Origin: Neorhizobium tomejilense
GTDB lineage: Bacteria; Pseudomonadota; Alphaproteobacteria; Rhizobiales; Rhizobiaceae
Reading direction: 5' to 3'
NCBI GenBank assembly: GCA_002968845.1
Contig: PVBG01000003.1
Location: forward strand, 310,001-374,000
Length of the DNA: 64,000 nucleotides
A program made the translations under genes and the position numbers. The notes beneath the pieces are model-generated. The model saw only the letters and a list, made by a program, of their open reading frames with translations, was not told the origin of the DNA and searched no databases. Shown one piece after another: positions 22,993 to 49,692 of this stretch. The first letter of the stretch is position 1. Each line of letters begins with the position of its first letter.

Positions 22993-23588
22993 TCACGTTC
23001 CAACGCTTTCTTTGCAAGCCGCCAGCTAAGCGATCGGCAGGTGGCCTCGCTGGATACGAGCACAGTATGGCCCAGATTGCTTCGCTGTTGCGCCTCCGCG
23101 GAACCATGGTGTGCCCTACCGGACAGTGATATTTGTAGGAGCTGTAGCTTTTTATCTGCGGCGAGCAGCGATTGTTCGAGGTCCTGAACTCGGCGGCAGC
23201 AGTAGGCTGCCAGTCCAACGGCGTAGCACCACCATTGTACACGGGGTGCTTGGCTAAGTTGATGGTCGATACCCATCGCCGGTCTCGAGCAGCGGATACT
23301 GTCGAGCAGCATTTCTGTCCTAGATCGGAAACGTGTTGCGGCTGGGGAGAATTCTAAGCTGCATATGCCGGAAATCCGCGAGCAAATGAACAGGTCGCGC
23401 AACGCCATTCCGGCAAGTTGCACGGCTGCTGATTAATTGTACATCGATTGATCGCTTGAGCTGTGTATGGCTACATGCGCGAAAACAGGAGTGGCGAATA
23501 ATAACCTGTTCGCGATGTAGTTGAGGGATTGAAGGCATGCACTGCCAGTGTAAGTTGTCCAAATCAGAAAGCTTGGGCAAGCGATTCT
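22993..23588. other. Region without a supported gene
   Basis: About 600 bases precede the zinc-hook ATPase. A minus-strand frame (to 23423) runs into the nuclease gene antisense and has only weak protein-like features (a hydrophobic patch and a short helical stretch), so I do not call it. Promoter elements for the ATPase probably lie near 23450-23580, but none is clear. Confidence 0.4.
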
Positions 23589-26282
23589 ATGAGCATTACC
23601 GATGATCTACTCGCATTTGCGAGGACGAGACCGGCCTGGGAACAGGACTTGTTCAGGCGCGTCTATACGCAGCCTGATCTGGTCGAAAATGACTTCGTTG
23701 AGGTTTTGGCCATGATTAAGGCCGCTAATGGGATCGAACTCCACGTTGCGGCGAGTGATCCAGTTCCGCTTACAGTCGATCACGTGTTGCATAGGGCTGA
23801 CGGAGCTGATCCTGTAGTGCTCGGTTCGATCAACGACATTCGTAGCGCGATGCAGTTGGCATCAGGACAAACGCTGTCTTTCGCGGTCAATGGGTTGACG
23901 ATAGTTTACGGTGAAAACGGAAGTGGCAAGAGCGGGTACTGCAAGCTTCTAAAGCAGATTTGCCGCGCTCGGCGAGAGCGCAATGACGAAGTCGTTCTGG
24001 AGAACGCCTACTCGACGGACAGGCTCTCCAAGCCATCACTCACGGTGCGCTTCAAAGTAGGGCAAGCCGAAGTCCAGGATCATCGGTGGGAAACGGGCGC
24101 TCCGCCTCCGCAAGCCTTGTCCCGGGTGAGCGTCTTCGACAGCCGCTTGGCACCCCTCTATGCTGATAAGCAAGACAAAATCGAGTTTCTGCCGGCTGGG
24201 TTGGATGTATTGCCGCGGGTGGTCAAGGCATGCACGGAAATAAGCCGACGCTTGAACGACGAAATGGAGCCGTTGAAGACGATCGTAGGCAGCCCTCTGC
24301 CCGACATAGAGCGGGACACCCCACAGGCCGAAGCCATCGGGAAGCTCAACGAGAAGACCGCTCTGAAATCCATTCCAAGCGCGTCTGCTTATCAGAATCT
24401 TGCGCTTTGGTCGTCAGCTGACGACACGGAGATCGGGTTGGTCCAGGACGATATACGTAGCGACCGGGCAGCTCTTGCCAAAGAGAAGACTCGCGGTGTC
24501 GGCATTCTGAAAAAGCTCAAAGAGCAGCTCGTACGTGCGGAAAACCTATTGTCCGCCGACGCGATCATACGTTTGAACTCTACAATAGCGAATTGCGTCG
24601 CAACCCGGGAGGCAGCGACTCTTGCTGCGAGCCTCGAATTCCGCGAAGACCCGCTTGCAACGGTAATCGGTTCTGAATCGTGGAAGCAGATGTTTGGATA
24701 TGCGGTAGCAGTGTACGCTAACGCGTTTCATGGGGCGGAATTGCCATCGCACGGCGATCACGACGTTTGCCCCCTTTGCGCTCAGAAACTATCTCATGGA
24801 GCGTTCGATAGGCTCGTTAAGTTCCGCGCGCTCATCGCGAACGAAGCGGCAAAGCAAGCTGAGTCAACGCTTGCGGCTCTGACCTCCGAGGTTTCGTTTC
24901 TACGACAGTTGACCCTGCCGCTGGCCGATCAAATCGTCAGTGCTTTGACTCCTTTCTTCGCGGAAGGCAGCGCTGAAGCGAGCGTTGTGAGCAACCTACT
25001 CAGATGGTTGGTATCCGCTGATCAGTTTCGGTCAGCGCTTACGAAGTCTGCCGAGGCACTCCAAGATGTTACATTCCTCGGCGTACTGGAACCGGGCAAG
25101 TCCAGCGAGGTGGAAACTTGGGCAAGCGCGCTAGCCGCTGCCGCAGCGGCTGATCAGGCTGCCGCGACTGATCCCGAACGTTTGAACCGCCTCAAGATCG
25201 AACTCCGAGATCTTCGCGGACGCAAGCAGCTCCATGACAATCTTCCAGCGGTCCTCCAACGAAGGACCCAACTGGTGAGCTTGTTGAAGCTTTCCGGATG
25301 CATTGCTTCTCGCCATAGCGCGCCGATCTCATCTAAAAATACTGAACTGTGCGAGAAGCACCTGACCGAAGACTTCCGCAGGAGGCTGCAGAAGGAAATA
25401 GGCGACTTGGGCATAGAGTATCTCCCTGTCGTTGTGACTGGACGGACCGATAAGGGGGTCAGTTATGTTGGGCCCGACCTGTCGAAGTCGATTTCAGCGA
25501 AGACCTCGAATATCTTGAGTGAAGGCGAGTTCCGCGCGTTGTCGCTCGCTTGCTTCTTCGCCGAAATTGGTTCCATTGACGGCCATGACGGCGTGATCCT
25601 AGATGACCCCGTTTCCTCGCTCGACCATAAGCATGTTCGGCAGGTGGCCACCCGTATCCTTGCGGAAGCCAAACACCGTCAGGTGATCGTATTCACCCAT
25701 GAATTGAGCTTCTATTATGAACTCTGGCATCAGGCCATGGAGGCTCACGTCGATGTCTTGCGACATTGGATCGTGAAAACGGAAGAACATGGCTTTGGCA
25801 CTGTTCGAAACGACGATGCACCATGGCAAGTCAAGTCCACCAAGGATCGCTTGGCAGCGCTGGACATCAAGTTGACATCCATGGCCAGTAGGGCATCAAA
25901 AGACACCGAGGCTTACGAACGTGAAATCACCGATTTCTTTACTGGGCTGAGAGAGACTTGGGAGCGCTTGGTCGAGGAGATGCTTCTCAATGGTGTTGTC
26001 GGCCGCTTCCAGCCCGGAGTGATGACACAGTCTCTGAGTGGGGTTGAGGTCAGGGACAGTGACTTTACCGCAATACATTTCGGAATGCGCAAGACCTCAG
26101 AGCTTTCCGGTCACGACTGGTCCAAAGGCAGGTTGCCCTATTCTCCCAGCGTCGATGATATGAAGCGCGAAGTTGAGACGGTGAGGACCTATCTCGCTGA
26201 GCTTAGAAAGAGGCGTGACGAACTGGCCTCCACTCGACGAAAAGCCGTGTCGGCTCCGCAGAAGGCAGAGACGCTAGGATAG
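23589..26282 (+). CDS. ABC-type AAA ATPase with zinc hook (RloC/Rad50-like)
   Basis: This 897-residue protein has an N-terminal ~100-residue helical lead and Walker A GENGSGKS (~108-115). Long helical arms are interrupted at ~394 by CPLCAQKL, a Rad50-type zinc-hook CxxC. An ABC signature LSEGEF follows (~643), then Walker B with DDPVSSLDH (~672) and a switch histidine in FTHELS. The layout matches SMC-like ATPases of the AAA_13/RloC/PrrC group that act in phage defence. The C-terminal ~200 residues are not recognised as the RloC nuclease. ATG 23589 starts the conserved SITDDLLAFARTRP; an earlier in-frame start at 23529 is less likely. No partner nuclease (such as an HNH gene) follows. Confidence 0.78.
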   Translation: MSITDDLLAFARTRPAWEQDLFRRVYTQPDLVENDFVEVLAMIKAANGIELHVAASDPVPLTVDHVLHRADGADPVVLGSINDIRSAMQLASGQTLSFAVNGLTIVYGENGSGKSGYCKLLKQICRARRERNDEVVLENAYSTDRLSKPSLTVRFKVGQAEVQDHRWETGAPPPQALSRVSVFDSRLAPLYADKQDKIEFLPAGLDVLPRVVKACTEISRRLNDEMEPLKTIVGSPLPDIERDTPQAEAIGKLNEKTALKSIPSASAYQNLALWSSADDTEIGLVQDDIRSDRAALAKEKTRGVGILKKLKEQLVRAENLLSADAIIRLNSTIANCVATREAATLAASLEFREDPLATVIGSESWKQMFGYAVAVYANAFHGAELPSHGDHDVCPLCAQKLSHGAFDRLVKFRALIANEAAKQAESTLAALTSEVSFLRQLTLPLADQIVSALTPFFAEGSAEASVVSNLLRWLVSADQFRSALTKSAEALQDVTFLGVLEPGKSSEVETWASALAAAAAADQAAATDPERLNRLKIELRDLRGRKQLHDNLPAVLQRRTQLVSLLKLSGCIASRHSAPISSKNTELCEKHLTEDFRRRLQKEIGDLGIEYLPVVVTGRTDKGVSYVGPDLSKSISAKTSNILSEGEFRALSLACFFAEIGSIDGHDGVILDDPVSSLDHKHVRQVATRILAEAKHRQVIVFTHELSFYYELWHQAMEAHVDVLRHWIVKTEEHGFGTVRNDDAPWQVKSTKDRLAALDIKLTSMASRASKDTEAYEREITDFFTGLRETWERLVEEMLLNGVVGRFQPGVMTQSLSGVEVRDSDFTAIHFGMRKTSELSGHDWSKGRLPYSPSVDDMKREVETVRTYLAELRKRRDELASTRRKAVSAPQKAETLG

Positions 26283-28739: not shown

Positions 28740-28831
28740 CAGTGTTCTGTAACCGATATTTGCGACGCCAGTGACCGGTTCGGGCCGAAAGCGGCCATCG
28801 GGACGGCCCGTTCATCAATGTGGCCAAGCCT

Positions 28832-29632: not shown

Positions 29633-30011
29633 CTGCTAGCCCCGATTCTTTGTGCGCCTCTCGGCAACTTCCCGCTATCGTTTCTCGTTTTCGTTGCGTG
29701 AGGTGGCAAACGGGCCAATTCAAGTCGTCCGTCGGTGAGAGGTACATCCTCGAAATCGGTCGACCTGCACGGTCCACCCGTTCGCTCACGAATGCCAGAC
29801 TTAGACCACTTCCATCAATTTTCGATGCCCATGATCCGGCACATTTGCTGAAGACCTGGGAGCGCCATGTTCAGAATCCAAGTCGATTAATATCACAGCA
29901 CACCAACCGCCTGAGCCTCCCTTCTCCAAAGTCTTCCAGGACGGGCCTTGCCGCCGTCCCCCAAATACACTCAAGGTGAGCACTGACTCATTCAACGCTG
30001 AGAGGAAAGCT
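29633..30011. other. Intergenic region before the GmrSD-like gene
   Basis: About 380 bases hold no supported gene. It should include promoters for the divergent DUF3800 and GmrSD-like genes. GAGAGGAAAGCT just before 30012 is a good ribosome-binding site. Confidence 0.4.
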
Positions 30012-32138
30012 ATGAAACCTTATACTCGATCGATAATCGAACTTTTCGATGGGAAGAAAAGGTTTCTTATCCCACTCTACCAAAGACAGTATGCCTGGAA
30101 GGCCCATCCGCAGCTTGAATTGCTATGGGAGGACATCGAGCGGTCCGTCGCACGTCTGATGGAAGACCGGCGGTCTCTCACCCCCCATTTCATGGGAGCC
30201 ATCGTCATCGCTCAAGTGAAGACCTTCGGCAAGGAACTCCAGGCGTTCGAAATTATCGATGGACAGCAGCGTCTGACCACGTTTCAGCTCTTACTGGCAG
30301 CTCTCCGCGATGTCGCTGGAGCGCACGGATCAAGCTACGAGGCTGAACTCCAGAAATACCTGCTCAACGAGGGGATCATGAACGATCCGTTGAAGGAGAG
30401 GTACAAATTGTGGCCGTCGATCACCGATCGCCGATCGTTCGTGAAGATCATCGATCCGAACGTCGACACCCACGCCTTTGGTCCGCCTCCGGATGATGAA
30501 GCAGATGTAGTCCGCCGCTCTGTTGCCGCACACGAATACTTCAAAGAAAAGATCGCCGCCCATGTGATCACGGATGAAGGGTTTGATGAGCGTAGGTTTG
30601 AAATCCTTTTCGAGGCATTGAAGGAAGGCCTTGCTATCGTCTCCATCGAACTGGAAGGGGGCGACGATCCGCAGACGATCTTCGAAACCCTGAATAGTCG
30701 CGGGGTGGATTTGACCCCGGGCGACTTGATGCGCAACTTCATCTTCCAGCGCGCAAAGGGAATGGGCCAAGTAGATCACTCACTGTTAGTCGATACGCTC
30801 TACGAGAGGCATTGGCTTCCGCTCGACCGCACTTTCTGGGCTCAGTCGGCGTCGAGAGGGAGGCAATCACGCAGTCGTCTGGACTGGATGCTGACGGATC
30901 ATCTCTCTATGCAAATCGGAGACCTAGTGTCCGTAGAAAACCTATTCGAGCGGTATCGACGGTGGCTATTGAACGTCAGGCCGTTCCCAAACGTGACCGC
31001 CGAGCTCGAATCAATTTCGGCCACCGCAGCGATTGAAAAGCAGCTCTTCGATCAGGCCCCGTCAGACCCGATCGGCAACTTCGGGCGATTTGCGGATGCC
31101 TTCGACGTGTCCACCGCCATGCCCCTGGTCATCTATCTCGCCACTGATCCAAGCGCTAGCGCCGACATCGATCGGGCACTGGCGATTCTCGTCAGCTACA
31201 TCTTGAGGCGCGACATTTGCGGCCTGACCACCAAGAACTACAACCGTCTCTTCATCGGCATCATCGAGCGCCTCCGCCTAGCCGAAGGCAACAAGCTCGA
31301 TGTCTTGATCGGATACCTTTCGGGCCGACAAAGCGACACCGATCGCTGGCCTGACGATGTCGAATGGCAGCGGGCTTGGCTCGGGCGAGGTCAATACAAG
31401 GGGCCGCGGCAGGCTCGTCTTCGTTACATTTTCGAAGCGATCGAGCTTGCAAAGCGATCAGCGCTGAACGAAGACATCGCGATCAGATCGACACTTACCA
31501 TTGAACACATCATGCCCCAGACTTGGCAGGGGAGCTGGCCTATCCCAGGTTTCGAAGTGGAAGAAGACGATCTGGACATCGATCCCGACTACGTGCTCAA
31601 GAGAACTGAACGAGACGCCGCCATCGATCGTATGGGAAACCTGACGCTGCTTACACATTCCTTGAATGCGTCGGTATCCAACGGTCCATACTTCGTGAAA
31701 ATGCCCGCCGTTCGAGCTCATTCCAGCCTAGCGTTGAACCGCGATCTAAATTCATATTCCGAATGGAGCGAAGAAACCATCCAAGCACGGGGCATTGATC
31801 TGTTCAATACGGCGAGGGGTATTTGGGAAGCGCCTATTCGACAGGAACTTCAGGGTCAACCTTTCATTGAAGAGAACGTCGCCCTTCCGCCCTCGGGCAC
31901 CAAATGCAGGTTCAAATATGGCGGTAAGGAATATTCCGGCGTGATTGAGGACGGCCACCTGGTGGTCCAAGGTTACACGCCGTTCGCGACGTTTTCCGCG
32001 GCCTCACGAGCAATAACAAATACCCGCCGAAACGGTTGGAATGATTGGCACCTCCTGGACTCTGGTGGGGGTTGGACGCTTGTGCACGATTGGCGATTTC
32101 AACAAGCCGTTTCGAAGCTCGGACCATTGAACCTTTAG
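30012..32138 (+). CDS. GmrSD-like DUF262/DUF1524 protein with RAMA-like C-terminus
   Basis: This 708-residue protein opens with a DUF262 (ParB-like NTPase) domain: IPLYQRQYAW near residue 20 and IDGQQRLTTFQ near 83. A helical region follows, then a DUF1524 HNH-type nuclease with IEHIMPQTWQ (~497) and GNLTLLTHSLN. The last ~90 residues (FKYGGKEYSGVIEDGHL, FSAASRAITNTRRNGWNDW) resemble the RAMA domain thought to bind modified DNA. GmrSD enzymes restrict phage DNA with glucosylated hydroxymethylcytosine, so this is a likely type IV restriction factor. ATG 30012 is chosen over a GTG at 29976 for its ribosome-binding site. Confidence 0.85.
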   Translation: MKPYTRSIIELFDGKKRFLIPLYQRQYAWKAHPQLELLWEDIERSVARLMEDRRSLTPHFMGAIVIAQVKTFGKELQAFEIIDGQQRLTTFQLLLAALRDVAGAHGSSYEAELQKYLLNEGIMNDPLKERYKLWPSITDRRSFVKIIDPNVDTHAFGPPPDDEADVVRRSVAAHEYFKEKIAAHVITDEGFDERRFEILFEALKEGLAIVSIELEGGDDPQTIFETLNSRGVDLTPGDLMRNFIFQRAKGMGQVDHSLLVDTLYERHWLPLDRTFWAQSASRGRQSRSRLDWMLTDHLSMQIGDLVSVENLFERYRRWLLNVRPFPNVTAELESISATAAIEKQLFDQAPSDPIGNFGRFADAFDVSTAMPLVIYLATDPSASADIDRALAILVSYILRRDICGLTTKNYNRLFIGIIERLRLAEGNKLDVLIGYLSGRQSDTDRWPDDVEWQRAWLGRGQYKGPRQARLRYIFEAIELAKRSALNEDIAIRSTLTIEHIMPQTWQGSWPIPGFEVEEDDLDIDPDYVLKRTERDAAIDRMGNLTLLTHSLNASVSNGPYFVKMPAVRAHSSLALNRDLNSYSEWSEETIQARGIDLFNTARGIWEAPIRQELQGQPFIEENVALPPSGTKCRFKYGGKEYSGVIEDGHLVVQGYTPFATFSAASRAITNTRRNGWNDWHLLDSGGGWTLVHDWRFQQAVSKLGPLNL

Positions 32139-37775: not shown

Positions 37776-39131
37776 CTATCTTGTTCGTGTTCTTTCGGTC
37801 TCTGTCGATGCGAGCCACTCTGCTTCAGCATCGTTCGTAACGAGCACTGACTTGACAGGCATAACCCCCACGCCGACTGCTCTCACTACAGAAATCCCCC
37901 CTCCATCGGCGGCGAGGTCTGCGCTCAGAGCCGCAAATGCATCACAGAAGGACTCCTCGGCTTTGACGTCGTCCTTTCCGTCTCGCACCGCGCCAGGCCT
38001 ATCGAAGGCCACGGTGCGCATCTGTACCATCCCATCCAGATTTCCGCCGATCTCGACGCCGTAGGTCGCCGAGGCCCGGTCACGGAGGATGATCTTGCCA
38101 TCCCGCACCCAGGCCGTTTCCATTTCCTGACGAACTTCATAACCCATTCGGGCCAACCCAGAGAGGAGGACGGTGCGACGATGGGCGTTTGCATTACGTG
38201 TGCGCGCCTCGTCTAAGATTTGCAGGGACCGCTGCAGAATCCCCAGCAGGTCAGCCGTTTTCGCTTCCTGATTTAGCAGGGATCCGATCTCCACGGCTTT
38301 CGCAGTTGCGACCGGCTCGGCCAAGTTGGTTAGTTCCGCGGCAATCCCCTCCAAGGTTATCGCCAAGCCCGCGCGGATAACAGCATCCTTCCGCGCCGCC
38401 GACACGTCGAGCACTAGGCTGTCAATCAGAAGCCCTTGTCGTCCCTCGCGGTTCTCCTCCTGTATAGCAGCGAGACGTTCATCGAACGCGGAGGCCGCCC
38501 TCTGGTCGAGCGCCCTAAGCTCGTCGACAATCCTTTCACAAGCCGCGACAGCTTGCGCGGTTGGAGTGCCGGGTTCCGCCGTGATCCACTCGGCCAATGT
38601 CTGACGATCCTCGCCTCCGCCGAGATAGGCGGCGAGGTCCTTTTGTCGTTCTGACAGCCCTGCCGTACGGCTTTCCGGGGCCAACAGCGCGAACGCTGCT
38701 GTGATGCCCTTGGCCAATTCCTCTGGAGCATGTTTTCCTGGGGCATCGAGGACGGGCGGAACCGCAATGCCCTTTGCAATTAAGGCCTGCTTGAGGCTCT
38801 GGGCGAGAGAGGCCGCCCTCCGTTTATTTTTGCGCTCCAACGCTGCGGCATCGGCGGCCTTTGCGATACGACGTTCGATGTCGGTGGCCAGAAAAGCGAC
38901 TTCGGCCGGAATCTGTTTTTGAACTTCCGCAAATTTGTCGTTGGCAAGAAGAGTGCGGATTGCGGACAATCGCTCCCTTGCTTCCTGGACATCCGTTTCG
39001 TCGACAACATCGTTCCTATGACCCACGCGCTGCCATCGCTGAAGCGCTGCCGCCAAACCAGCTATCTGACCTTCGCAGATCTCGATGAGTTCCTGACGGG
39101 TGACAATCCTGACGACCTTGGGACCACTCAT
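37776..39131 (-). CDS. Helical protein, last gene of the AAA/radical-SAM/helicase operon
   Basis: This 451-residue protein is mostly helical. The N-terminal 130 residues include coiled-coil-like LTRQELIEICEGQ-type and ERRIAKAADAAALERKNKRR segments. The C-terminal ~110 residues, from ARMGYEVRQEMETAWVRDGK onward, look more globular, with beta strands (GVEIGGNLDGMVQMRTVAF). It starts with SGPKVVRIVTRQEL and its ATG overlaps the giant gene's stop as ATGA, so it should be made with it. No domain is recognised. It could be an adaptor or effector of the system. Confidence 0.75.
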   Translation of the reverse strand: MSGPKVVRIVTRQELIEICEGQIAGLAAALQRWQRVGHRNDVVDETDVQEARERLSAIRTLLANDKFAEVQKQIPAEVAFLATDIERRIAKAADAAALERKNKRRAASLAQSLKQALIAKGIAVPPVLDAPGKHAPEELAKGITAAFALLAPESRTAGLSERQKDLAAYLGGGEDRQTLAEWITAEPGTPTAQAVAACERIVDELRALDQRAASAFDERLAAIQEENREGRQGLLIDSLVLDVSAARKDAVIRAGLAITLEGIAAELTNLAEPVATAKAVEIGSLLNQEAKTADLLGILQRSLQILDEARTRNANAHRRTVLLSGLARMGYEVRQEMETAWVRDGKIILRDRASATYGVEIGGNLDGMVQMRTVAFDRPGAVRDGKDDVKAEESFCDAFAALSADLAADGGGISVVRAVGVGVMPVKSVLVTNDAEAEWLASTETERTRTR

Positions 39132-42100
39132 TCAGCCGCCTCCTGGAAAAGCACAGCATCGACCGCAGCCTTGAGGTTTCGTTTTTCTTCCTGGCGCGAA
39201 TGATACCATCCGTAGCACGATACCCGATGGACCACAGGAATGGACCGACGAAGGACCGAGGGTCTCCAGACTTCGCGGGCCCGCGCGGTATCAAGAATCC
39301 TGTGGCGCGGGGCGTCACATTCGATGCCGAGCCCATATAGGCCGGTTCTTGGATTCTCTATTGCGAAATCCAAACCGAATGCTGTCCCGTCACTGACCTG
39401 ATTGGCTTTGACACCAATTTCGCCGAGATACTCCGCTACGGACGAGGCAAAGCCGTCAAGACTGTCATCGTCGTCGAAAACAGAGGCATTTGACCGCTCG
39501 GTCATCATGCGGTTCAGCAAAACCCGGCCATTGTCCAACTCTCCATCTGACATCGCCCGGGCGTATTCAAGATACCCTTGCAAGTAGTCACGAGGAATCG
39601 ATGGGCGTCGCCTGCTAGTCAGCAAGTCAGAGACCGAGCCGATCGGCATCGATGTCACCAGGATGACTCTGGACCGCGCCCTGGTGACGGCGACATTCAA
39701 GCGCCGCTCACCACCTTTTTGGCCCAAAACGCCGAAGTTCCGGCGGAAAGTGCCCTGCGTGTTCCGACCAAATGTCGATGAGAAGATGATATGATCGCGC
39801 TCGTCGCCCTGTACGTTCTCTACGTTCTTGACGAAGAACCCGACGTCCTCACCGCCCTCGACGCGATCTCGTTCCCGTGCGAGAACGCCGCTGAACCATG
39901 GATCGCCTTCCGCTTCGTCATCGAGGATTTCTTCAATCAGGTCCGCCTGTTTCCGGTTGAAGGTTACAACACCGATGGTGGGGACCTTCCCGCTTTTACT
40001 CCAGGTTTCCCGTAGGATCTCGACGACCTTCCGTGCTTCGGTCTCGTTCGTCTGGTTCTCATATATACCATCCGCGCGGACGACCTCAATCGGGCGCACT
40101 CGACCGATTTCGTCGTCGGGATGGCGAACCGGCACGTTCAAGCGGTTACCGTAGAACGAGGCATTGGAAAAGCCTATTAGCTCACGGTATTCGGAGCGGT
40201 AGTGGATTTGCAGGGTCGTTGACGGGAGTACCGTCTTGGCGAGCTGAAGCAGGTCAGGGCAATCCTTGATCTCCCTGCGGTTCCATGTCTCATTGTAGGT
40301 CTCCCGCTCGGCGTCGCTCGCATCTTCCTGAAGTTCCTCATCATCGAATGCGTCTGCCTCGTCGTTCTCAACCTTGCTGCTGAAGAAGGCCGTTGGTGGC
40401 ATCTGCTTTTCGTCACCGCTGACGATGACTACCTGTCCACGGTATAACGACGGCAGGGCGTACTCGACTGGCATTTGGGACGCCTCATCGTAGATGACGA
40501 TGTCAAATAGGCCTTTCCTGAGCGGCAACACGCGGCTCGCGACATCTGGGTTCATCAACCAGACGGGACGCAGCTCCATAAGACCGAGATCGGCCCCTTT
40601 CTCCATGAATTCTCTGAGCCGCTGCGCGCGCTGTCCGCGCAACCGTGTGATGGGCTCCCATTCGCGATCGGAGGCAACACGCGAGAAATCGATGCCTTTC
40701 GTCAACAGCATTCGGTTAGCCTTGCGCATGGAGACGTCTGCGTCAGCGAGCAAGCGGACCTTTTCCTGAAGCTCGGCGGGCTCATACATCAGGGCCAGAT
40801 TTTCGGTTTCAAGCCTCGTCTTCCAAGAAAGTAGTGCCTCCCTGCGAATAATCCGGCGTACTTCAGCCTCCAGTGCTGGCGTCGGGATAGGGGATAGGTC
40901 GGCGGCGCGAGGGCGCAGCTCCTTAAATACCGCCAAAGCCCCCGCGGGAATCCCATTCAATCGAAGTCTGAAACGCTGATACGGCTCCAGGCCTGAGGCT
41001 GCTTCGAGAGTTTTGCCAATCTCGTAGGCATTCGTTCCATTCTCATCGATTACCGTGGCGCGTTGCTCGATCCACCGAGGATCAAACCACTGGGCGAGAT
41101 TGGAGAGAGCGGCGTTAGAAAACTGCTTCGCCTCGTATCGCTCGTACGCTAATTCCGTGCTGTTGCGTAGCTCTTCATACGCGGCCCGCGTTGAAGCCTT
41201 AAGGACATATTCGATGGCTGTCTGCGAGGGGTGTGACGATGCGGCGTCAGCGATCAATTGAACCTTGACCAAAGCGAGAGCGCGATGAGCGGCGATATCT
41301 GCAAGCTCGACCGATGTGAGTCTGGTCGAGATCAGCTCTGCTTCGCCCAACTGCTGCAAGTTTGCACTAAGCTTTGTCCGTAGGGGTCTAAGGCAAACTT
41401 CCCACTGTAGAGAAACCAGAAAGTTGTGCGGCGAGTTCGGATCGAGATTGAGTTCGGTCAACTGAGCCCGCAATTTCCTGGCACGGAACCACCGGAACGG
41501 GCTCAAACGACCAAGGAACGAGGGCTTCGAGATCACGGCTTTCGAAAGGCTAACAGCATCCGACAACGTCTGATCCGCCATTGAGGTCGTAGCCGGTCGA
41601 TGACTATCAGTGGGCGCTTCGCCTGGCACGGCCTTGAGCTGCTCGCGCACCGCGACCAGTTCCCTGACTATGGAAACGGCCTTGCTGTCGTCGGTCCCGT
41701 TCCGTTTGAGCAGGCCCCGCCAACGGGCGAATTCGGCCCATTCTTCGACGCTGAGGTCCCTGAAGTCTTGATCGTGCTCTGCGAGCCATTCCCGAAAAGG
41801 CTCAGGCTCTTCCATCGGAAGCGCCCCTTCTGTTTTCTTGAGAATACTAAGGCGCTGGTTCTCGCTGTTCCGGAATGACGTCAGGTCAGCTTTGAATGCA
41901 TTAACTGTCGCGGCGTCGGGCTGGAAAACCTTTACGACCTGGAGATCGTTCCCTTCGAAATTGGCGGGCAACCAGAAACGGGCGTTGGGGCCGCAGGTGT
42001 CGGCGAGTGCATCCACTTCCTCCCGCTTCAGTGAAGTCATGAGCCTTCGCAACGAGGGAACGTCAATAGGTGGGCCGCCACGCTCCAATCGGAGAAGCTC

Positions 42101-45100
42101 GCCGAGCAGCGCGCGGTACGACAGGCCACTTGCCTCGTCGTCTTTGTGGATTGATACGTGATGACGGTCGAGGTCCGCCTCAACGCTTTGGATGCGTTGC
42201 GCGAAGCTCTGTCGATCACGCCTCCAATTCTGATTTCCGTACGCTCCCCGCTGCGCCTCTAGCTGTTCTCGGACAGCCTTCAATACTGGCTCGCGGTCTT
42301 TGTTCATGTCGGTGATCATGAAAATACGATCTTCTAGGCCTTCCGCCTCAAGCCGCTTTTTGACCACTTCGAGCGCCGCCTGCTTCTGGCAGATGACGAG
42401 AAGGCTCTTTTTCCGCCCGATCGCATCTGCGACCATATTGACGATAGTCTGGCTCTTTCCCGTACCCGGCGGCCCCTCGATCAGTAGGCCAGGAGCGTTT
42501 CGAGCCTCCAGGACCGCAGCCTCCTGGGAGGGGTCGCTGGCAACTGTAAAAAAGCGATCAATCTCTTCGACGCGTGGGGAAGCGGGTGGGCGAGGCGGAT
42601 TCTCCGTTACCTTCAGTGCAGTGTCGAGGCCGGAGCCGTTGAGCGGCCTGCTCTTGAGCTGGCGTAGGTCTTCGACGATCGCCTGGCCCATGTAGGCGAG
42701 GTGGAAGAAAGAGGCGGCGCAAGCGATTTCGGGAACGCCGATCTCTGTCTGGGCGTCCTTGTTTGGCAGCGCGGTTAGACTGCGTCCGCGGGGTTTTGCG
42801 AGCCCTGAGAAGCCGTCCACCACATCTGCGGCGGTGAGGGTCGCTCTCCCGAGTAGATCGTTTGCGGCCTCCTGCCATCGTCTGGCGGCTTCTATCCCGA
42901 TTATCCCCTCGAAGGCAGGGTTCAGTCGGACCTCGTCACGATCTCTATCGAAAGCAACCGTGGCATGGCCGCGATTCCCAACCTCAGGAACGACCTTAAG
43001 CGGCCATAAAAGGATAGGCGCAATCTTCGGCTTCGACCTGTCATCGCGGTGGATCAATATCGGGAAGCCGAGGTAGAGACCGTCGATACCCGTGTCGCGC
43101 TTATAGAGAAGCGAGTGGTGGTGAAGCGCTCGAAGTCGTCGTTCCAGTGTTTCGGACTTTGCAAACGCTGCGGGGTCGAGGCTTTCAGCACGGTCTGTGC
43201 GCGCGAGCAGGTGATCCAGAAGGGCAGTGGCGGGCCGCCGTGCCGTATCAAGCTCAATGATATCAAGGCGAGGGGTCGTCTTCCCAATCGTCATCCGCGT
43301 GAGAGGACCTCGGAGAATGCTGCCTGAAATTTTCTTCGAGAAGTAGTCAAGCAAAGTCGAGACATACGACTGCTTTGGAGGCTCCTTCCAGCTCGCCGCA
43401 GGAACGGCGAGCAATGCCAGAGCGCGATCCAGCGGGATCCGGCGGTCGAGGCGAAATTGATCTGCCCACTCATCGACTCTTGGAATATCGCATCGTGCGA
43501 AACCGGCGAGCCGTTCCTCCACAAGCCGATGAAGATCCCGGCGGGAATTTGACAGAAGAGCGGTGGCCTCGACCCTGTCGAAGGAAGCGATACTAACCTT
43601 TGCTGCTGTGGCTTCCGCTTCCTCCAGAATTTCATTCAAGGAACGGAACTGGCCGACCTGCGCCGACAATAACAGGATCAGGTCTTCCTCGGTGGTCTGC
43701 CTTCTTTCGAGAAGCGTGTTCAAACCGGGGTGGTCCGTGTCCGGCAAGAGCTTGCGTCGCTCCGCCCATAAGGCTGCAAGGCGAGCTTTTGACGTCGAGA
43801 GCAAATTGATCTTGAGTTCGTCTTCGTCTAGTGCGATCTCAAACTGTTTGGCCCTGGCCCGGGTTGCCTCGCCCCGTTGTCGAAGCCGCTGAAGCCATTC
43901 TTCTGCCTCCAGGCGCGCCAGAAACTCCGTCGCGCTTCCGAATACGAGCTGAGTACCCTGATCTGGATGATCGAGCAGCCAGCCTGGCGTGACGAGATTG
44001 CCCTTTACCACCAGCGGCATCAACGGGTGAAGGATCTTCAACGTGATGGAAAGCCGGAGATCGTCACTCAGCCCTTCGGTGTGGGCCAATCGTCGGACCG
44101 CAGCCTGCATGCCAGCCTCGAGCCCAGCGTCCTGTACCCAGGCAGCAACGACTCCGCGTACCGCTTGGGTGCGGGCTTCGTCCCAGTTCTGCGGTTCGGC
44201 GGCGGCCAGAGCGTAAGCCGTCGGCCTTGTGAAGCCTTTGCCTCCAAGTCGAATCGAAGCGCGACCTTCGAGATCGGCAACCTGAACTGCTTCCGGAGGA
44301 AGGGGAACGTCGTCCCCTTCGGTCCAGGCTCGGACCTCGTCCCACTGCCATCGGCTGCGGTGATCGCGGGCGAGTAGACCCTTAAGAAGTTGCCCGGTCG
44401 CCGGATCGAGTGCCTCCGGAATATCCACGCCATTCGTTAAAACATTGATGAGAAAGGCCTGTGGATTGACGTGCTCGAAACATTTTCCCTGCGTGGCGAT
44501 TTCCAGCAAGACCATTCCCAGGCTCCACCAGTCGGAGGCGGCAGCGACACCGCCAGCGATGGCTTCGGGGGCCATGTATCTTGTGGTCTCAAGGGGCGCG
44601 ACAACGTCGAGATCGTAGTCCGAAAGCCTAGCGGAGCCGAACCCGGTGATCACGAGGTCGAGAGGAACTTTCGTCCGCACGAGAATATTTTCGGGGCGCA
44701 CGTCGCGGTGTCGAAGACCAGCCTGAGAAAATGAGGCCAGCGCGCGCCCGACCTCCATCGCAATGGTCCGTATAGAGACCGCATCTTCTGAGTATGTGAC
44801 GCTCAGTGCCCCGGCGGCAATAAGCTCACTGACTTCGTAGACGCGCTCTTGCCATCTGCCGACAGCCATGATTTCCGGGATATGATCGTGTGGCATCCCC
44901 ATAAGAGCGTCGAAGACCGCACGGTCAGGCTCCGATCCTTGCGCATACAGCGTCAAAACGCCGGAACGGCCCGACTCCTGATGTGTCGAAGTAAACTGCT
45001 CTTGCACAGAACCATGAGACGGCATTGGTGCGACCAGCGTCCAGCCGTCAATCTCCGTCGGCAGGGCAGGCGCTTCGGCCACCGTTTGATTGGTTTCCGG

Positions 45101-45382
45101 GACCCGCGCGGTAGCCGCCACCGGTTCGTCGGCATCCAGCACTGCACCGCATTCAAGGCAAATGAGATCGCCCTCATCGATTGGATGACCATTTGGGCAG
45201 CAACGCTGCTGCGGCGTTCGAGATGAGGCCGAAACCGCTGCAACGACTTCGGCTTGCCCTGCCGCTTGGACGGGGTACGCGGAAAGGTCCCAGTTACACG
45301 TCGCGCCGTCTGGAAGGCTGCCCTCGCAAAAGAATTCGCTGAGCGGGCGTTCTGTTTTGCAGTTTGGGCAAAATCTGATCAT
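39128..45382 (-). CDS. Zinc-ribbon / kinase-fold / UPF1-like SF1 helicase / Vsr-like nuclease fusion
   Basis: This 2084-residue protein has, in order: two zinc-ribbon-like segments (CPNC at 5-8; CCPNG and CLEC at 61-78); a protein-kinase fold (~110-345) with HRDVRPEN (225-232), APE (271-273) and DWWSLG (284-289); helical linkers; a DUF4011-like region (~760-830); SF1 helicase motifs (GPPGTGKS 970-977, YDEASQ 1631-1636, GDEKQ 1656-1660, NVAVTRARSR 1896-1905); and a Vsr/MTES_1575-like nuclease (~1975-2075; D2005, IECD 2020-2023). The kinase DFG reads GFG and no VAIK lysine or glycine loop is clear, so it may be a pseudokinase. The gene overlaps both neighbours by 4 bp. Helicase-kinase proteins occur in Mokosh defence; a defence role here is inference. 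Confidence 0.88.
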   Translation of the reverse strand: MIRFCPNCKTERPLSEFFCEGSLPDGATCNWDLSAYPVQAAGQAEVVAAVSASSRTPQQRCCPNGHPIDEGDLICLECGAVLDADEPVAATARVPETNQTVAEAPALPTEIDGWTLVAPMPSHGSVQEQFTSTHQESGRSGVLTLYAQGSEPDRAVFDALMGMPHDHIPEIMAVGRWQERVYEVSELIAAGALSVTYSEDAVSIRTIAMEVGRALASFSQAGLRHRDVRPENILVRTKVPLDLVITGFGSARLSDYDLDVVAPLETTRYMAPEAIAGGVAAASDWWSLGMVLLEIATQGKCFEHVNPQAFLINVLTNGVDIPEALDPATGQLLKGLLARDHRSRWQWDEVRAWTEGDDVPLPPEAVQVADLEGRASIRLGGKGFTRPTAYALAAAEPQNWDEARTQAVRGVVAAWVQDAGLEAGMQAAVRRLAHTEGLSDDLRLSITLKILHPLMPLVVKGNLVTPGWLLDHPDQGTQLVFGSATEFLARLEAEEWLQRLRQRGEATRARAKQFEIALDEDELKINLLSTSKARLAALWAERRKLLPDTDHPGLNTLLERRQTTEEDLILLLSAQVGQFRSLNEILEEAEATAAKVSIASFDRVEATALLSNSRRDLHRLVEERLAGFARCDIPRVDEWADQFRLDRRIPLDRALALLAVPAASWKEPPKQSYVSTLLDYFSKKISGSILRGPLTRMTIGKTTPRLDIIELDTARRPATALLDHLLARTDRAESLDPAAFAKSETLERRLRALHHHSLLYKRDTGIDGLYLGFPILIHRDDRSKPKIAPILLWPLKVVPEVGNRGHATVAFDRDRDEVRLNPAFEGIIGIEAARRWQEAANDLLGRATLTAADVVDGFSGLAKPRGRSLTALPNKDAQTEIGVPEIACAASFFHLAYMGQAIVEDLRQLKSRPLNGSGLDTALKVTENPPRPPASPRVEEIDRFFTVASDPSQEAAVLEARNAPGLLIEGPPGTGKSQTIVNMVADAIGRKKSLLVICQKQAALEVVKKRLEAEGLEDRIFMITDMNKDREPVLKAVREQLEAQRGAYGNQNWRRDRQSFAQRIQSVEADLDRHHVSIHKDDEASGLSYRALLGELLRLERGGPPIDVPSLRRLMTSLKREEVDALADTCGPNARFWLPANFEGNDLQVVKVFQPDAATVNAFKADLTSFRNSENQRLSILKKTEGALPMEEPEPFREWLAEHDQDFRDLSVEEWAEFARWRGLLKRNGTDDSKAVSIVRELVAVREQLKAVPGEAPTDSHRPATTSMADQTLSDAVSLSKAVISKPSFLGRLSPFRWFRARKLRAQLTELNLDPNSPHNFLVSLQWEVCLRPLRTKLSANLQQLGEAELISTRLTSVELADIAAHRALALVKVQLIADAASSHPSQTAIEYVLKASTRAAYEELRNSTELAYERYEAKQFSNAALSNLAQWFDPRWIEQRATVIDENGTNAYEIGKTLEAASGLEPYQRFRLRLNGIPAGALAVFKELRPRAADLSPIPTPALEAEVRRIIRREALLSWKTRLETENLALMYEPAELQEKVRLLADADVSMRKANRMLLTKGIDFSRVASDREWEPITRLRGQRAQRLREFMEKGADLGLMELRPVWLMNPDVASRVLPLRKGLFDIVIYDEASQMPVEYALPSLYRGQVVIVSGDEKQMPPTAFFSSKVENDEADAFDDEELQEDASDAERETYNETWNRREIKDCPDLLQLAKTVLPSTTLQIHYRSEYRELIGFSNASFYGNRLNVPVRHPDDEIGRVRPIEVVRADGIYENQTNETEARKVVEILRETWSKSGKVPTIGVVTFNRKQADLIEEILDDEAEGDPWFSGVLARERDRVEGGEDVGFFVKNVENVQGDERDHIIFSSTFGRNTQGTFRRNFGVLGQKGGERRLNVAVTRARSRVILVTSMPIGSVSDLLTSRRRPSIPRDYLQGYLEYARAMSDGELDNGRVLLNRMMTERSNASVFDDDDSLDGFASSVAEYLGEIGVKANQVSDGTAFGLDFAIENPRTGLYGLGIECDAPRHRILDTARAREVWRPSVLRRSIPVVHRVSCYGWYHSRQEEKRNLKAAVDAVLFQEAAE

Positions 45383-46035
45383 CGTTGCGCACGTGGTCTG
45401 GGGTTGGAACGGTCTTGGGTTACGGTAAAGGTTTGCAGTTGCTTGCCGAGCACCTTCCGGAGATTTTCGAAATCGGTGCGTCCAGGAATACCTGCCATCC
45501 AGACTTCGCCCTCGGCATCCAGCATTACGTCGAAGCGCCGGGGTCCTGGCTCTTTCATAAAATGTGAAAATTCCCGGCAGCCCCGTTCCGTCAGCAGATG
45601 AAGTCGCTGATTGTCGCTTCCCCTTAGCGCCAGCCTGTCAGTCTCACTCATGACGAAGGGATCAGTGATCAGAGCGTCAATCAGTCCATCCATCGCCGAT
45701 AGGTGTTTTTCGATGTATTCTAAGGGATGACCTGAATAAACCAGCACATTGCCGTCCAAATGGCTTCTCGTCTCCTTGAGCAGGGCTGCTAACGCTTCGG
45801 GTTGATCGAAAGGTTCACCGCCTGAGATTGTCAGGCCGTCAGCCCTGACCAGCCAAGGCATGATCCCTCTGACCACTTCTGAAACCGTCGTCCTGCCGCG
45901 GCCGACAGCCCATGTGTCAGCGGAGATGCATCCTGGGCATCTGATGGAGCAGCCTTGAAACCAGATGCCGATCCGGCTGCCGGGGCCTAAAGTGGTGACT
46001 GGAAAGTGCATGCGGGAGATTTCGATGCCGGTCAT
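45379..46035 (-). CDS. NrdG-like radical-SAM protein
   Basis: A 218-residue radical-SAM protein with the cluster motif CSIRCPGC (Cys29, 33, 36; CX3CX2C) and a SAM-binding GGEP (72-75). It resembles the activating enzyme of anaerobic ribonucleotide reductase (NrdG) and 4Fe-4S single-cluster proteins. No nrdD or other glycyl-radical enzyme lies nearby, so it is unlikely to serve that role. It is coupled to both neighbours by ATGA overlaps. It may modify a partner protein or a nucleotide. The C-terminal ~70 residues (EGEVWMAGIPGRTDFENLRK) are an extension of unknown role. Confidence 0.85.
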   Translation of the reverse strand: MTGIEISRMHFPVTTLGPGSRIGIWFQGCSIRCPGCISADTWAVGRGRTTVSEVVRGIMPWLVRADGLTISGGEPFDQPEALAALLKETRSHLDGNVLVYSGHPLEYIEKHLSAMDGLIDALITDPFVMSETDRLALRGSDNQRLHLLTERGCREFSHFMKEPGPRRFDVMLDAEGEVWMAGIPGRTDFENLRKVLGKQLQTFTVTQDRSNPRPRAQR

Positions 46036-47870
46036 GGGGATCTCGATTTCTCCGTGAGGCTTATCGAGGTCACGGCCCCAGGTATCAAATCCGATATCTC
46101 GAAAGCACCGGACGTTGCACCCGTATCAAAAAGCGCTCTCGCCAACGGATTAGCCAAATGGGCTTCGACCATATTCCGGATGCCGCGACCGCCGTTTGTG
46201 AGGTCTTTTAGGCAGAGTTCTCTCAGTATCTGCAGAGCGCGGTCGGATATGACAAGCGTGAAAGCCAGCGAGGCCGTGTCTTCCAAAAGCCCTGAAACGA
46301 TCTGCTCGAATATCTGTTCGGCAATCGGTCTCCGGATAAAGTCGAAGACTATGACGTTTTCGCCTATGCGGTTCAGGATTTCCGGTCGATTGAGGACGAG
46401 TTTGAAGTGGTTCTCGATCTCCTGGCGGACTTTCGTTGATACAGTTTCCTGGCCGTCGTCGGGTCCGACATTTGCAATCCGCTCCCCGTCGGCTCCGGTC
46501 CGGTAAATACCGAGGTTGGAGGTGAATAGGATGATCGCCTCGGAGAAATATACCCGATCACCGCGACCTGACGTTAGGACACCATCGTCGAGAATCTGAA
46601 GGAACTTATCGAGGATACGTGGGTGAGCCTTTTCGATTTCATCGAACAAGATGACGCTGAACGGCTTTTCCCGTACGGCGTTAGTGAGTTCGCCACCGAC
46701 GTCATATCCGACATATCCTGGGGGAGCGCCGATCAACCTCTGGTCGGCATGCTCCGCGCTGAATTCCGACATATCGAAACGGATGTAGGCCGAGTCATCT
46801 CCGAATAGGAGGCTAGTCACCGTCTTGGCCAGCTCTGTTTTTCCAACACCAGTCGGCCCCGCAAGGAACGCCACACCTCTTGGACGGCCAGTTGACCCGG
46901 ATCTTCCAATCCCGGTCACCGCACGCTTGATGATGTCAAGCAGGTGGGTGACAGCGTGCTCCTGGCCTTTGACCCGCCGACGGATATATTCATCCGCTCC
47001 AGCGATCTTGGCGCGGTCGATCCGTTGCCACGGATCTTCCGTGACGCCAACTTTGTAACGCCGGACAGCATCGGCGATCTGCGTAATCGGCAATCCTTCG
47101 GTTCGCCCGAGTTGAGCAATTGAGTTCAGGTCTGAAAGGAGCAGCCCGTCGGTCAGATTGACGAATGTCTCCTCCGCCGCTGCCGCCTCTGCAGGACTGG
47201 TTTCATGTCCGGCCTTGAGAATTCGCAGAAGTGATCCGGCTAGGGATTTTCTAGTTGCCCCATCAGGGGAGGGGATGCTGATTGTTCGAATTCGCGGATT
47301 GTCGACAGTGAGCCAGTCGGGAAGATCGGCTTCACGGTCCGAGATCCATATAACGGTATTGTAGAACGGTCTTCTCTCGGGACCTGCTGGCCTGCTGGTT
47401 GCAGAGTGAGAGGCAATTTGGGCGCGGGTGAACAGTGCGTGCTCGGGAGCAGACAGCACGTCGCTCCGATTTACGAGCCGAGACGCGAAGTCGATGATCA
47501 GCGTTGCGGGCGGCCCCTTCGAAGCGACAAATGCATCAAGCGATGCTGCCAGGACATCCAATCCGATGCCGCCGCTGTTCGAGCCACCAAATCCGTTGCG
47601 CCTGAGGGTATCATGCAAAGTCTGCTCGGGACCACCGCCAGGCAGGCTGAAGCCGGAAAAGGGCCGGAAAAGGATAACATCCTCGTACCCCAGGGCTCGA
47701 AGCTCCGCGTCGAGGCAGTTAATGAGCGGAATGGCCGCGGTAGGGCCGTTGGGCACCCCGATCGCCTGAAGGTCGCGAACGTTGTCGCTGATCACGAACT
47801 GGCTTTTCAGTGGTAGAAACCGGATTAAATCTCGGAGCCAACGCGGTTTTGAAAATGCTGTTTCAGTCAC
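46032..47870 (-). CDS. ClpA/B-type AAA+ ATPase, first gene of the operon
   Basis: This 612-residue protein has a C-terminal ClpA/B D2-like module. Walker A is GPTGVGKT (338-345), the pore loop GYVGYD (385-390), Walker B ILFDEIEK (407-414), the arginine-finger region NRPEILNRI (494-502) and sensor 2 GGRGIRN (560-566). The first ~270 residues look like a degenerate AAA fold without Walker A (a Walker-B-like ATLIIDFAS sits at ~122). There is no Clp N-domain or M-domain, so it is not a normal disaggregase. It starts at GTG 47870 after GGGGAAGGG and heads the four-gene operon. It probably remodels or unfolds a protein for the system. Confidence 0.85.
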   Translation of the reverse strand: MTETAFSKPRWLRDLIRFLPLKSQFVISDNVRDLQAIGVPNGPTAAIPLINCLDAELRALGYEDVILFRPFSGFSLPGGGPEQTLHDTLRRNGFGGSNSGGIGLDVLAASLDAFVASKGPPATLIIDFASRLVNRSDVLSAPEHALFTRAQIASHSATSRPAGPERRPFYNTVIWISDREADLPDWLTVDNPRIRTISIPSPDGATRKSLAGSLLRILKAGHETSPAEAAAAEETFVNLTDGLLLSDLNSIAQLGRTEGLPITQIADAVRRYKVGVTEDPWQRIDRAKIAGADEYIRRRVKGQEHAVTHLLDIIKRAVTGIGRSGSTGRPRGVAFLAGPTGVGKTELAKTVTSLLFGDDSAYIRFDMSEFSAEHADQRLIGAPPGYVGYDVGGELTNAVREKPFSVILFDEIEKAHPRILDKFLQILDDGVLTSGRGDRVYFSEAIILFTSNLGIYRTGADGERIANVGPDDGQETVSTKVRQEIENHFKLVLNRPEILNRIGENVIVFDFIRRPIAEQIFEQIVSGLLEDTASLAFTLVISDRALQILRELCLKDLTNGGRGIRNMVEAHLANPLARALFDTGATSGAFEISDLIPGAVTSISLTEKSRSP

Positions 47871-48420: not shown

Positions 48421-49368
48421 TTACAGAGCGGCCATGATGAGTTTCCTGACTTGCTTATCCAGGGCGAATTCTAGCAGACGCTCGAGCGCTCGGAGGCTGG
48501 TTAAAACGTCGCCTCTGACCGTTTCGAAATCGAGGATATGGTTGATCGCAGGCGTCTTCACGTTGACGAAGGCCATGGACTTCGTCGGACGGACAATCAT
48601 GTCGGGTTGCAGGTATGGACCCAAGGACTCGGCCAACTGCTCCGCATTCCTGGTGGCCACAGCAAGCTCACAGCCGATACCCTTGAACTTGTGGATCAGG
48701 CGAACACTGTTGCCGGCATACAGGGGAGGGAAGTAAATCCAGCTGCCGTCCTTCCCGACGACATCCGGTTTTATCAGGCGCAGTTGCGGGGACTCGGAGC
48801 AGGCGACCGCCCAATAGTTCTGGTAGAATTCCATCATTGCGGTGTCGGGCGACTTCACATACCCCTTCCTGTAGTCCGCAATCGCGCTTTCGAAGACATG
48901 GCGCTTGAAGGCGAACTCGGGTCGGTCCGAGAGGAAATCGACAATGACCTCGTAGGACAAGTTGGCGTCTATCTGCGAGAAATGCTCGGCCGCCAGCGCC
49001 TCATAGTAATTCCGCGGCGACATAAGAACCACTTTGAAGCGGTGCCACTGCCCGTTCAGGATGCCTGCTTTGCCGCGCATACGGTAGCGGGCAAACTGCC
49101 GGTCCATCAGGGGCGCTCGGACTTTGTTCTCAATGAGGATTGCAGACCGTCCGCCGGAACTTTCTACCACCATCTCGATGTCCGTTTCACCCAACGATGT
49201 ATCGGCAACCGAGCGTCGGATCGCCACCGGTCTAGCATCAAGGGATTCGCCAGCAATCGCCAGAATTGCGGCCAGGAATTCCGGTGAACTGTGAATAAGG
49301 TCCATTGCCAAGACATCGGTGACGATTTCGTCGACGCGAGCGATGGTGTCGAATGTCAGGTAAATCAT
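48421..49368 (-). CDS. PD-(D/E)XK nuclease superfamily protein
   Basis: A 315-residue protein with a nuclease-type core: ETDIEMVVES then AILIENKVRA (the E-x-K motif), followed by QFARYRMRG, as in PDDEXK-like defence nucleases. The rest (YEVIVDFLSDRPE, DGSWIYFPPLYAGN, LQPDMIVRP) suggests a target-binding domain. ATG 49368 has TGGAG eight bases upstream; an in-frame start 48 bases earlier is less likely. It is on the same strand as the four-gene operon but ~550 bases upstream of it. Confidence 0.7.
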   Translation of the reverse strand: MIYLTFDTIARVDEIVTDVLAMDLIHSSPEFLAAILAIAGESLDARPVAIRRSVADTSLGETDIEMVVESSGGRSAILIENKVRAPLMDRQFARYRMRGKAGILNGQWHRFKVVLMSPRNYYEALAAEHFSQIDANLSYEVIVDFLSDRPEFAFKRHVFESAIADYRKGYVKSPDTAMMEFYQNYWAVACSESPQLRLIKPDVVGKDGSWIYFPPLYAGNSVRLIHKFKGIGCELAVATRNAEQLAESLGPYLQPDMIVRPTKSMAFVNVKTPAINHILDFETVRGDVLTSLRALERLLEFALDKQVRKLIMAAL

Positions 49369-49692
49369 GGTCGGCTCCAGGCTCTTCCAGCCCAATCGGA
49401 CGTCAAGATCCGTCAAGGGCTTCTATCCGTGATATCTGTGTTGGCACATGATGAGACGAAGGGGATCTCAATCCCTTCCTCGAGTCCGAGTCGGGCCGAC
49501 TATTGAGTTGCGATCATAGACCATATTGGGCAGAATTGCTCTCTGACACAGGGGAGTGGGCGTCCTACAGAATGGTCATCCCTCGAGCAGGAACACGCGG
49601 CGGGCTGCTTGTGGCAGCAGAGATTAATACACATGGAATGCTGCCTACCTCAGCCCCAAAAGTGAGCCCCGCGACGATAAAAGTAGAGGGTG

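Follow-up and report, generated by a model that had tools for sequence, protein, structure and literature searches.

A Conserved Four-Gene Operon Joining a Predicted Hsp100-Like Unfoldase and a Radical SAM Protein to a Pseudokinase-Helicase-Nuclease in Neorhizobium tomejilense

Introduction

The operon studied here lies in a 64,000-nucleotide stretch of Neorhizobium tomejilense DNA (contig PVBG01000003.1, positions 310,001 to 374,000 of the forward strand; hereafter the window) and encodes an AAA protein, a radical S-adenosylmethionine (SAM) protein, a very large protein (the giant) and a helical partner. The nearest described kind that was found is that of the DUF4011 helicase-nuclease defence proteins Hhe (NF042953), ProA (NF058533) and PDC-S37 of PADLOC, all of which align with the helicase and the C-terminal nuclease of the giant: ProA with 483.4 bits and a best stretch over residues 902-2081 (its cut-off of 1500 was not reached), Hhe with 307.7 bits over residues 1372-2066 (its cut-off of 2000 was not reached) and PDC-S37 with 459 bits over residues 1584-2078. 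Unlike these proteins, the giant carries N-terminal zinc ribbons and a predicted pseudokinase, and it has a predicted unfoldase, a radical SAM protein and the partner alongside. As far as found, the novelty relative to them lies in this unfoldase/radical SAM module, which no library used here names as a system.

The Mokosh systems (MkoA/MkoB, MkoC) share a COG1112-type superfamily 1 (SF1) helicase with the giant, whose helicase part is matched by MkoA (E 8.4e-45). Mokosh type I has an active Ser/Thr kinase; unlike Mokosh, the giant carries a Vsr-like nuclease and a degenerate kinase. A review gives, in its accessible part, PLD-like (types I and II) or NERD (type I) domains for Mokosh (PMC10952713), whereas none of the four proteins has a PLD-like or NERD Pfam match at E 0.1. 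The FtsH-type vWA-MoxR ternary systems, which have a radical SAM effector and were proposed to act in biological conflict, resemble the operon in combining an ATPase, a helical domain and a radical SAM protein; no helicase-nuclease giant is mentioned in the accessible portion of their description (PMC7159879). Unlike them, the four proteins show no vWA or MoxR Pfam match at E 0.1. At the Pseudomonas aeruginosa defence hotspot cDHS1, a small gene, a large DUF4011 gene and a radical SAM gene adjoin, which the excerpted account presents only as conserved flanks (PMC10250203); likened to the present operon by that description alone, they are possibly the same operon. An earlier note on the window knew of no named system with this four-part set, and none was found in PADLOC, NCBIfam or the open-access literature searched, where no paper on the four-gene set was found either.

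The Four Genes Are Conserved as One Set

Twelve loci with a giant were inspected, namely the window, Bradyrhizobium hipponense (L008), three Rhizobium plasmids (L183, L184 and L191), Caballeronia (L185) and six further loci (L177, L178, L179, L180, L181 and L257). The AAA, radical SAM, giant and partner genes were found in that order in 10 of the 12, the window counted. In L183, a plasmid of Rhizobium sp. C104, the order is kept and the radical SAM and giant genes are broken into pieces; in L181, the giant is shortened and no partner was found. The pairwise identities of the four proteins co-vary (Mantel r 0.82-0.94, p <= 0.0008, 9 loci). Among 72,556 plasmid records, eight hold at least 80% of the giant, and the same eight give the eight best AAA matches; the partner is present in all eight, lying no more than about 11 bases from where the matched giant ends. 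Three other plasmid records match the partner, those of Microvirga and Roseomonas with a piece of the giant alongside, and that of R. leguminosarum (CP022566) with one third of the partner and no giant piece among the matches listed. The same gene order in Bradyrhizobium, Rhizobium, Caballeronia and further genomes implies that the set did not arise by chance. In summary, the four genes are a real, conserved unit, and the co-occurrence of the four families in the same order in unrelated taxa, for which the earlier note had looked to a neighbourhood analysis, was found.

The Encoded Proteins

The domain types that the earlier note had read in the first two genes were recovered by Pfam, the AAA protein matching the ClpA/B-type family AAA_2 (E 4e-45) and the radical SAM protein matching Fer4_12 (E 9.4e-24). 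In the AAA protein, the motif GxxxxGK[ST] occurs once, at residue 338, and nowhere earlier, so the first ring lacks this ATP-binding signature. The predicted fold aligns with the two-ring fold of Hsp100 proteins (ClpB, ClpC and ClpA) over residues 6-609; the second ring has the Walker A and B motifs and the pore loop of this family and is, over residues 265-582, 39% identical to an 888-aa host protein that is presumably ClpB. Unlike in ClpB, ClpC and ClpA, the alignment begins after the Clp N-domain, the first ring is without Walker A and the gene shares an operon with a radical SAM gene. The fold comparison thus points to a predicted Hsp100-like double-ring unfoldase whose first ring lacks Walker A.

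For the radical SAM protein, the match to the Pfam family Radical_SAM stayed below the cut-off, the nearest model was NrdG (83 bits, below its cut-off of 126), and the best likeness in the PDB was to pyruvate formate-lyase activase (E 3.5e-7). Of 16 aligned rows, one of them false (a neighbouring open reading frame (ORF) in L010 that is not a radical SAM protein), at least 90% retain the CX3CX2C cluster motif, the SAM-binding GGE motif and GSxNQ. By these three motifs it resembles the NrdG/PflA activases, and it is predicted to be of that type. It differs from NrdG in falling below the NrdG cut-off and in its host genome (99.99% complete), in which searches for class III ribonucleotide reductase (NrdD, PF13597) and for the glycyl-radical domain gave no match; a control search for the former matched 6 of 14 genomes.

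In the giant, Pfam recognises Pkinase, DUF4011, AAA_11/AAA_12 (SF1 helicase) and REase_MTES_1575 (Vsr-like) domains. Conserved columns were counted in the 120 best-ranked of 654 relatives, the window's own included; the helicase and nuclease columns refer to the 113 rows longer than 1900 aa, the other 7 being shorter. The zinc-ribbon cysteines 5, 8, 19, 29, 62, 75 and 78 are kept in 102 to 112 of the 120 giants, and the remaining rows are gapped. HRD of the kinase domain is present in 120/120 giants and the Asn of HRDxxxxN in 24/120; the beta-3 Lys is found in none of the 119 rows with a residue at that column, and the DFG Asp in only 3/120, the window reading GFG. At the other end of the protein, the Asp and Glu of the DEAS box are kept in 113/113 giants, and the nuclease Asp, Glu/Asp, Asp and His in 113, 113, 113 and 112 of 113. 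To judge by these columns, the helicase-nuclease end is conserved and the kinase active site is not, which argues for a pseudokinase of the right fold whose activity is very unlikely. Hence, of the parts that had been named for this protein before, the zinc ribbons, SF1 helicase and Vsr-like nuclease are upheld by conserved columns and Pfam matches, whereas the kinase stands as a fold and not as an activity.

The 451-aa partner matches no Pfam family above its cut-off. At least 88 relatives, the window's own included, were found at E 0.001 when the 7996 candidates sharing most words were scored, and 55 of these together with proteins of three loci form an alignment of 58 rows (A4), in which M1-S2-G3-P4-K5, G330, Y331, D388, E392 and C396 are invariant. 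Starts reading MSGPK or nearly so were seen again in Aristaeella, Methylocaldum, Gaiellasilicea, Geminocystis (MSGSPK), L207, L221 (LSGPK) and L227; the partners of L182, L209, L223, L226 and L228 are without such a start. The model of the partner (predicted local distance difference test score 90) is mostly helical, with long helices and a small alpha/beta domain at the C-terminus, and no good match to it was found in the PDB.

The Unfoldase and the Radical SAM Protein Form a Module in Other Clusters

A search for the first-ring domain of the AAA protein found it in 9/398 Pseudomonadota genomes (4 of them strong, host counted), in 8/369 genomes of the class of G212, in 9/299 genomes of the phylum of a Clostridia metagenome-assembled genome (G455, itself counted) and in 1/385 genomes of the host's class, the host itself. 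Of the best 80 matches listed in a contig scan with the AAA alignment, four were true relatives; the 76 others, which are without the first-ring domain, served as ordinary ClpB control loci. We then selected 33 unfoldase loci, comprising the strong ones, the four from the contig scan, named plasmids (near-identical ones counted once), G022 and G034. Weak AAA matches (G064, G178, G291, G325, G759, G714 and a second place in G212) were left out; in three of these that were fetched (L230-L232), none of the module families was present, and the stretch of G325 (L173) holds a partner-like ORF.

In the fetched stretches, a radical SAM protein was found at 29 of the 33 loci, the partner domain at 20 and an FHA domain at 11. 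The corresponding counts were 1, 0 and 0 at the 76 ordinary ClpB loci, and 10 random stretches of 20 kb contained none of the three. Nine of the 33 loci supplied the seed sequences of the radical SAM profile, and leaving these out gives 20/24; G022 and G034 came from the partner search and not from the AAA search, and without both the count is 27/31. Although nine proteins of the 33 loci were added stepwise to broaden the partner profile, the starting profile already finds partners beside the AAA gene in at least L207 (E 2.5e-27), L228 (2.7e-10), L226 (1.8e-9) and L209 (1.2e-4), so the link to the partner in other genomes does not depend on the later rounds alone. The module genes are not always adjacent, as in L207. 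The AAA protein of L229 (G455) clearly belongs to the family; the 20 kb fetched there contain neither a radical SAM gene nor a partner or FHA gene.

Three layouts were distinguished, the first being that of the window. In the second, which comprises 11 loci, a radical SAM and an FHA gene accompany the AAA gene, with the partner in 10, a kinase in 10 and PP2C in 7; here, the kinase is separate, and the FHA protein bears a zinc ribbon, recognised by Pfam in L186 and by eye in L221, L223, L226 and L228. Clusters of this type, with kinase, FHA, AAA and radical SAM genes, mostly the partner and often PP2C, were seen in L221, L223, L225, L226, L227, L228 and L186. The Aristaeella cluster, in which a separate DUF4011 helicase gene lies beside kinase, partner, FHA, radical SAM, AAA and PP2C genes, links the pieces that are fused in the giant. 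The third layout, found at five plasmid loci (L187-L190 and L193, from Moellerella, Photobacterium, Polaromonas, Acinetobacter and Leisingera), has in fixed order a Mokosh-like helicase, a PIN protein, a protein of about 370 aa, the AAA protein and the radical SAM protein, and the partner profile matches nothing in these five loci. In L190 and L188, extra radical SAM genes lie close by. In summary, the unfoldase and the radical SAM protein, frequently joined by the partner, recur as a module beside other effectors or, in other phyla, beside phospho-signalling genes; the four-part set proposed earlier is conserved together, but its remodeller and radical enzyme, often with the partner, also form a separate module without the helicase-nuclease.

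Distribution and Neighbouring Defence Genes

The kinase region of the giant was found in 2/394 genomes of the family and the partner in 3/60 relatives, the host being counted in both, and copies of the operon lie on predicted conjugative plasmids. In 50,697 phage records, AAA matches were found in 148, none spanning 80% of the query, and partner matches in none; a viral scan with the AAA protein gave 80 loci at 33-41% identity, with no match before query residue 171. Near-identical DNA of the AAA gene was absent from the E. coli genomes, in which distant relatives were not searched for.

The earlier note had expected the four families to lie near known defence genes, and this stood for some copies, including the window, with its GmrSD-type enzyme and PDC-S06 candidate (Table 1), and G034, in which KwaB of Kiwa lies about 2.7 kb from the operon copy. 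An excess of such genes in the flanks over controls did not emerge at E 1e-20: the PADLOC matches in the flanks of five copies were not above those in controls, and nine further flank proteins tested singly against PADLOC gave no match at this threshold. At 1e-60, a threshold chosen afterwards, the counts are suggestive of a difference: 7 family names, two of which the window itself contributed, among 80 flank proteins versus 1 among 101 controls.

Possible Role of the Operon

The reading we prefer, held tentatively and with slightly less than even confidence, is that the giant is a predicted DNA-attacking helicase-nuclease and that the other genes form a control module likely licensing it, probably as an accessory defence directed at phages or plasmids. 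In favour of defence are the patchy distribution, the carriage on plasmids, the broken copy L183, the helicase and nuclease themselves, and the defence genes near some copies. Docking or sensing would fall to a head made up of the pseudokinase and zinc ribbons, taking the place that a separate kinase and a zinc-ribbon FHA protein occupy in related clusters. The gene fusion and the loss of catalytic residues suggest that this fused head may keep the docking role with phosphorylation dropped, in which case the unfoldase/radical SAM/partner module could act directly on the nuclease. The partner (or else the giant) would be the substrate of the radical enzyme, and the unfoldase would pull on that same protein, thereby exposing a site or switching the complex, after which the licensed giant would translocate on foreign DNA and then cut it. 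A wider version, possible if somewhat unlikely, is a radical-licensed DNA-defence machine in which the Hsp100 motor and the radical SAM enzyme would jointly modify a shared partner, the module being a general control unit of bacterial conflict and signalling combined with three kinds of effector: the kinase/FHA/PP2C set, the PIN protein and Mokosh-like helicase, and the giant with its pseudokinase, helicase and nuclease.

Several observations weigh against the preferred reading. An oxygen-sensitive activase is odd for presumably aerobic soil bacteria, and a motif search found no classical glycyl-radical motif in the partner, the radical SAM protein or the AAA protein. The radical SAM gene is missing from the fetched stretch at 4 of the 33 unfoldase loci, in the relative L177, Ala replaces the Asp of the nuclease ECD (the second Asp, in a smaller alignment), a defence role is not obvious for the sister clusters that carry FHA, PP2C and kinase genes, and the flanks show no excess of PADLOC matches at E 1e-20. 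Of PA2725-PA2728 in P. aeruginosa, one is presumably a chaperone, one a radical activase and two are hypothetical proteins. In that species, DUF4011 and radical SAM genes are reported, in the accessible part of the source, beside cDHS1 in every isolate and as core genes (PMC10250203).

Since those genes are core and not accessory, they allow a repair or housekeeping role, in which the operon would be a host DNA-repair or stress system whose helicase-nuclease processes damaged host DNA while the unfoldase clears stalled complexes. This alternative is unlikely, yet it draws on the signalling set of FHA, PP2C and kinase in the module's other clusters and on a clinical-isolate paper that, in the portion consulted, lists 'PA2727 + PA2728' under replication, recombination and repair while naming PA2727 a 'histidine kinase' (PMC4918941); an extract of another paper calls PA2727 a 'similar DNA helicase' (PMC3697988). 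Against repair stand the rarity where sampled (2/394 of the family for the kinase region and 1/385 of the class for the AAA domain, host counted in both), the carriage on plasmids, the broken copy L183 and some defence neighbours; moreover, the P. aeruginosa genes are matched to this family by description and not by sequence. A chance neighbourhood, in which the four genes would be coupled in translation and share no function, can be practically dismissed: the overlaps are kept only partly in relatives (L008, L178 and L185 show a short gap at the first junction, and the second junction departs from the ATGA overlap in L178, L184 and L185), but gene order and co-divergence extend over distant taxa, and the pairing is specific compared with controls.

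The chemistry can be read in two other ways. Instead of an enzyme, the radical SAM protein could be a sensor whose Fe-S cluster reports redox or nitrosative stress during infection, gates the unfoldase and frees the nuclease. Its NrdG-like core in a genome without detectable NrdD or glycyl-radical domain would fit, as would the lack of the classical motif in the three smaller proteins, but a pure sensor would not need the GGE and GSxNQ motifs kept in at least 90% of the 16 rows (one false), which makes this quite improbable. Less probable again, and very doubtful, is that the partner bears the radical, the activase placing it on a conserved Gly of what would be a new kind of glycyl-radical protein, with nucleotides or the giant as its target. 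All 58 rows of A4 do have Gly330-Tyr331 and Cys396, and distant partners show, by eye, a Gly-aromatic pair and a Cys; however, 'LGY' is common as a helix-to-strand turn, and known glycyl-radical enzymes have a barrel fold, unlike the modelled helical body and small alpha/beta domain of the partner.

Helicase-nuclease defence proteins are common, and none was found described as tied to both an unfoldase and a radical enzyme. If this pairing licenses DNA cutting, as in the preferred reading, an immune nuclease could be armed by radical chemistry. The comparison also places genes without labels, from several phyla, in one frame: a half-dead Hsp100 ring goes together with an orphan NrdG-like protein and often with the same family of partners, so that their joint function is testable with one operon.

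Operon Organisation and Setting in the Window

The operon that the earlier note had described was recovered as four head-to-tail genes on the minus strand, running from 47870 to 37776, with a 4-bp ATGA overlap at every junction (Table 1); these overlaps may, as that note proposed, keep the amounts of the four proteins in balance. A purine-rich stretch, GGGGAAGGG, lies upstream of the GTG start of the AAA gene. Promoter-like sites (6 versus 4.1 expected from shuffles, standard deviation 1.9) and terminator-like sites (11 versus 11.5 expected in shuffles) were not in excess.

Table 1. Positions in the window of the operon genes, their overlaps, the predicted protein features and the neighbouring defence genes.
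Feature	Position	Strand	Basis or remark
AAA unfoldase gene (operon gene 1; unfoldase predicted)	46032-47870	-	612 aa, GTG start; ORF call
Radical SAM gene (operon gene 2)	45379-46035	-	218 aa; ORF call
Giant gene (operon gene 3)	39128-45382	-	2084 aa; ORF call
Partner gene (operon gene 4)	37776-39131	-	451 aa; ORF call
ATGA overlap, AAA/radical SAM	46032..46035	-	coding-strand reading
ATGA overlap, radical SAM/giant	45379..45382	-	coding-strand reading
ATGA overlap, giant/partner	39128..39131	-	coding-strand reading
AAA protein, first ring domain, residues 6-260	47091..47855	-	AAA fold without Walker A; alignable over 13 rows, all layouts
AAA protein, second ring, residues 330-595	46086..46883	-	Walker A, Walker B LFDEIEKAH, pore-loop-like GYVGYD, TSN; invariant columns
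Radical SAM protein, CX3CX2C cluster motif, Cys 29, 33, 36	45928..45951	-	alignment, motif reading
Giant, N-terminal zinc ribbons, residues 1-80	45143..45382	-	conserved Cys columns
Giant, predicted pseudokinase, residues 105-355	44318..45070	-	Pfam Pkinase E 4.7e-21; columns of 120 relatives
Giant, DUF4011 and SF1 helicase core, residues 740-1913	39644..43165	-	Walker A GPPGTGKS, DEAS box, motif VI
Giant, REase_MTES_1575 (Vsr-like) nuclease, residues 1978-2073	39164..39451	-	D...ECD...H; Pfam E 8.2e-14; 113 relatives
GmrSD-type restriction enzyme (context, outside operon)	29976..32138	+	Pfam, PADLOC
PDC-S06 candidate defence protein (context, outside operon)	23529..26282	+	PADLOC E 6.3e-168

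Directly upstream of the operon and on the same strand, a 331-aa ORF (48421-49416) has a sub-threshold match to a PDDEXK_4 nuclease. A 272-aa ORF (49690-50508) begins, by eye, like a GIY-YIG nuclease and has no Pfam match at E 0.1. On the other side, an ORF at 35037-35846 has an IS1/IS1595-type zinc domain; the earlier note had named a putative IS66 relic beside the region. The stretch 15091-32138 opens with tRNA-Ser and tRNA-Arg at 15.1-15.7 kb, followed by an FtsH-like AAA/M41 protein (17438-19429), and an ORF with an SNase domain (22090-22992) lies between the FtsH-like gene and the PDC-S06 candidate.

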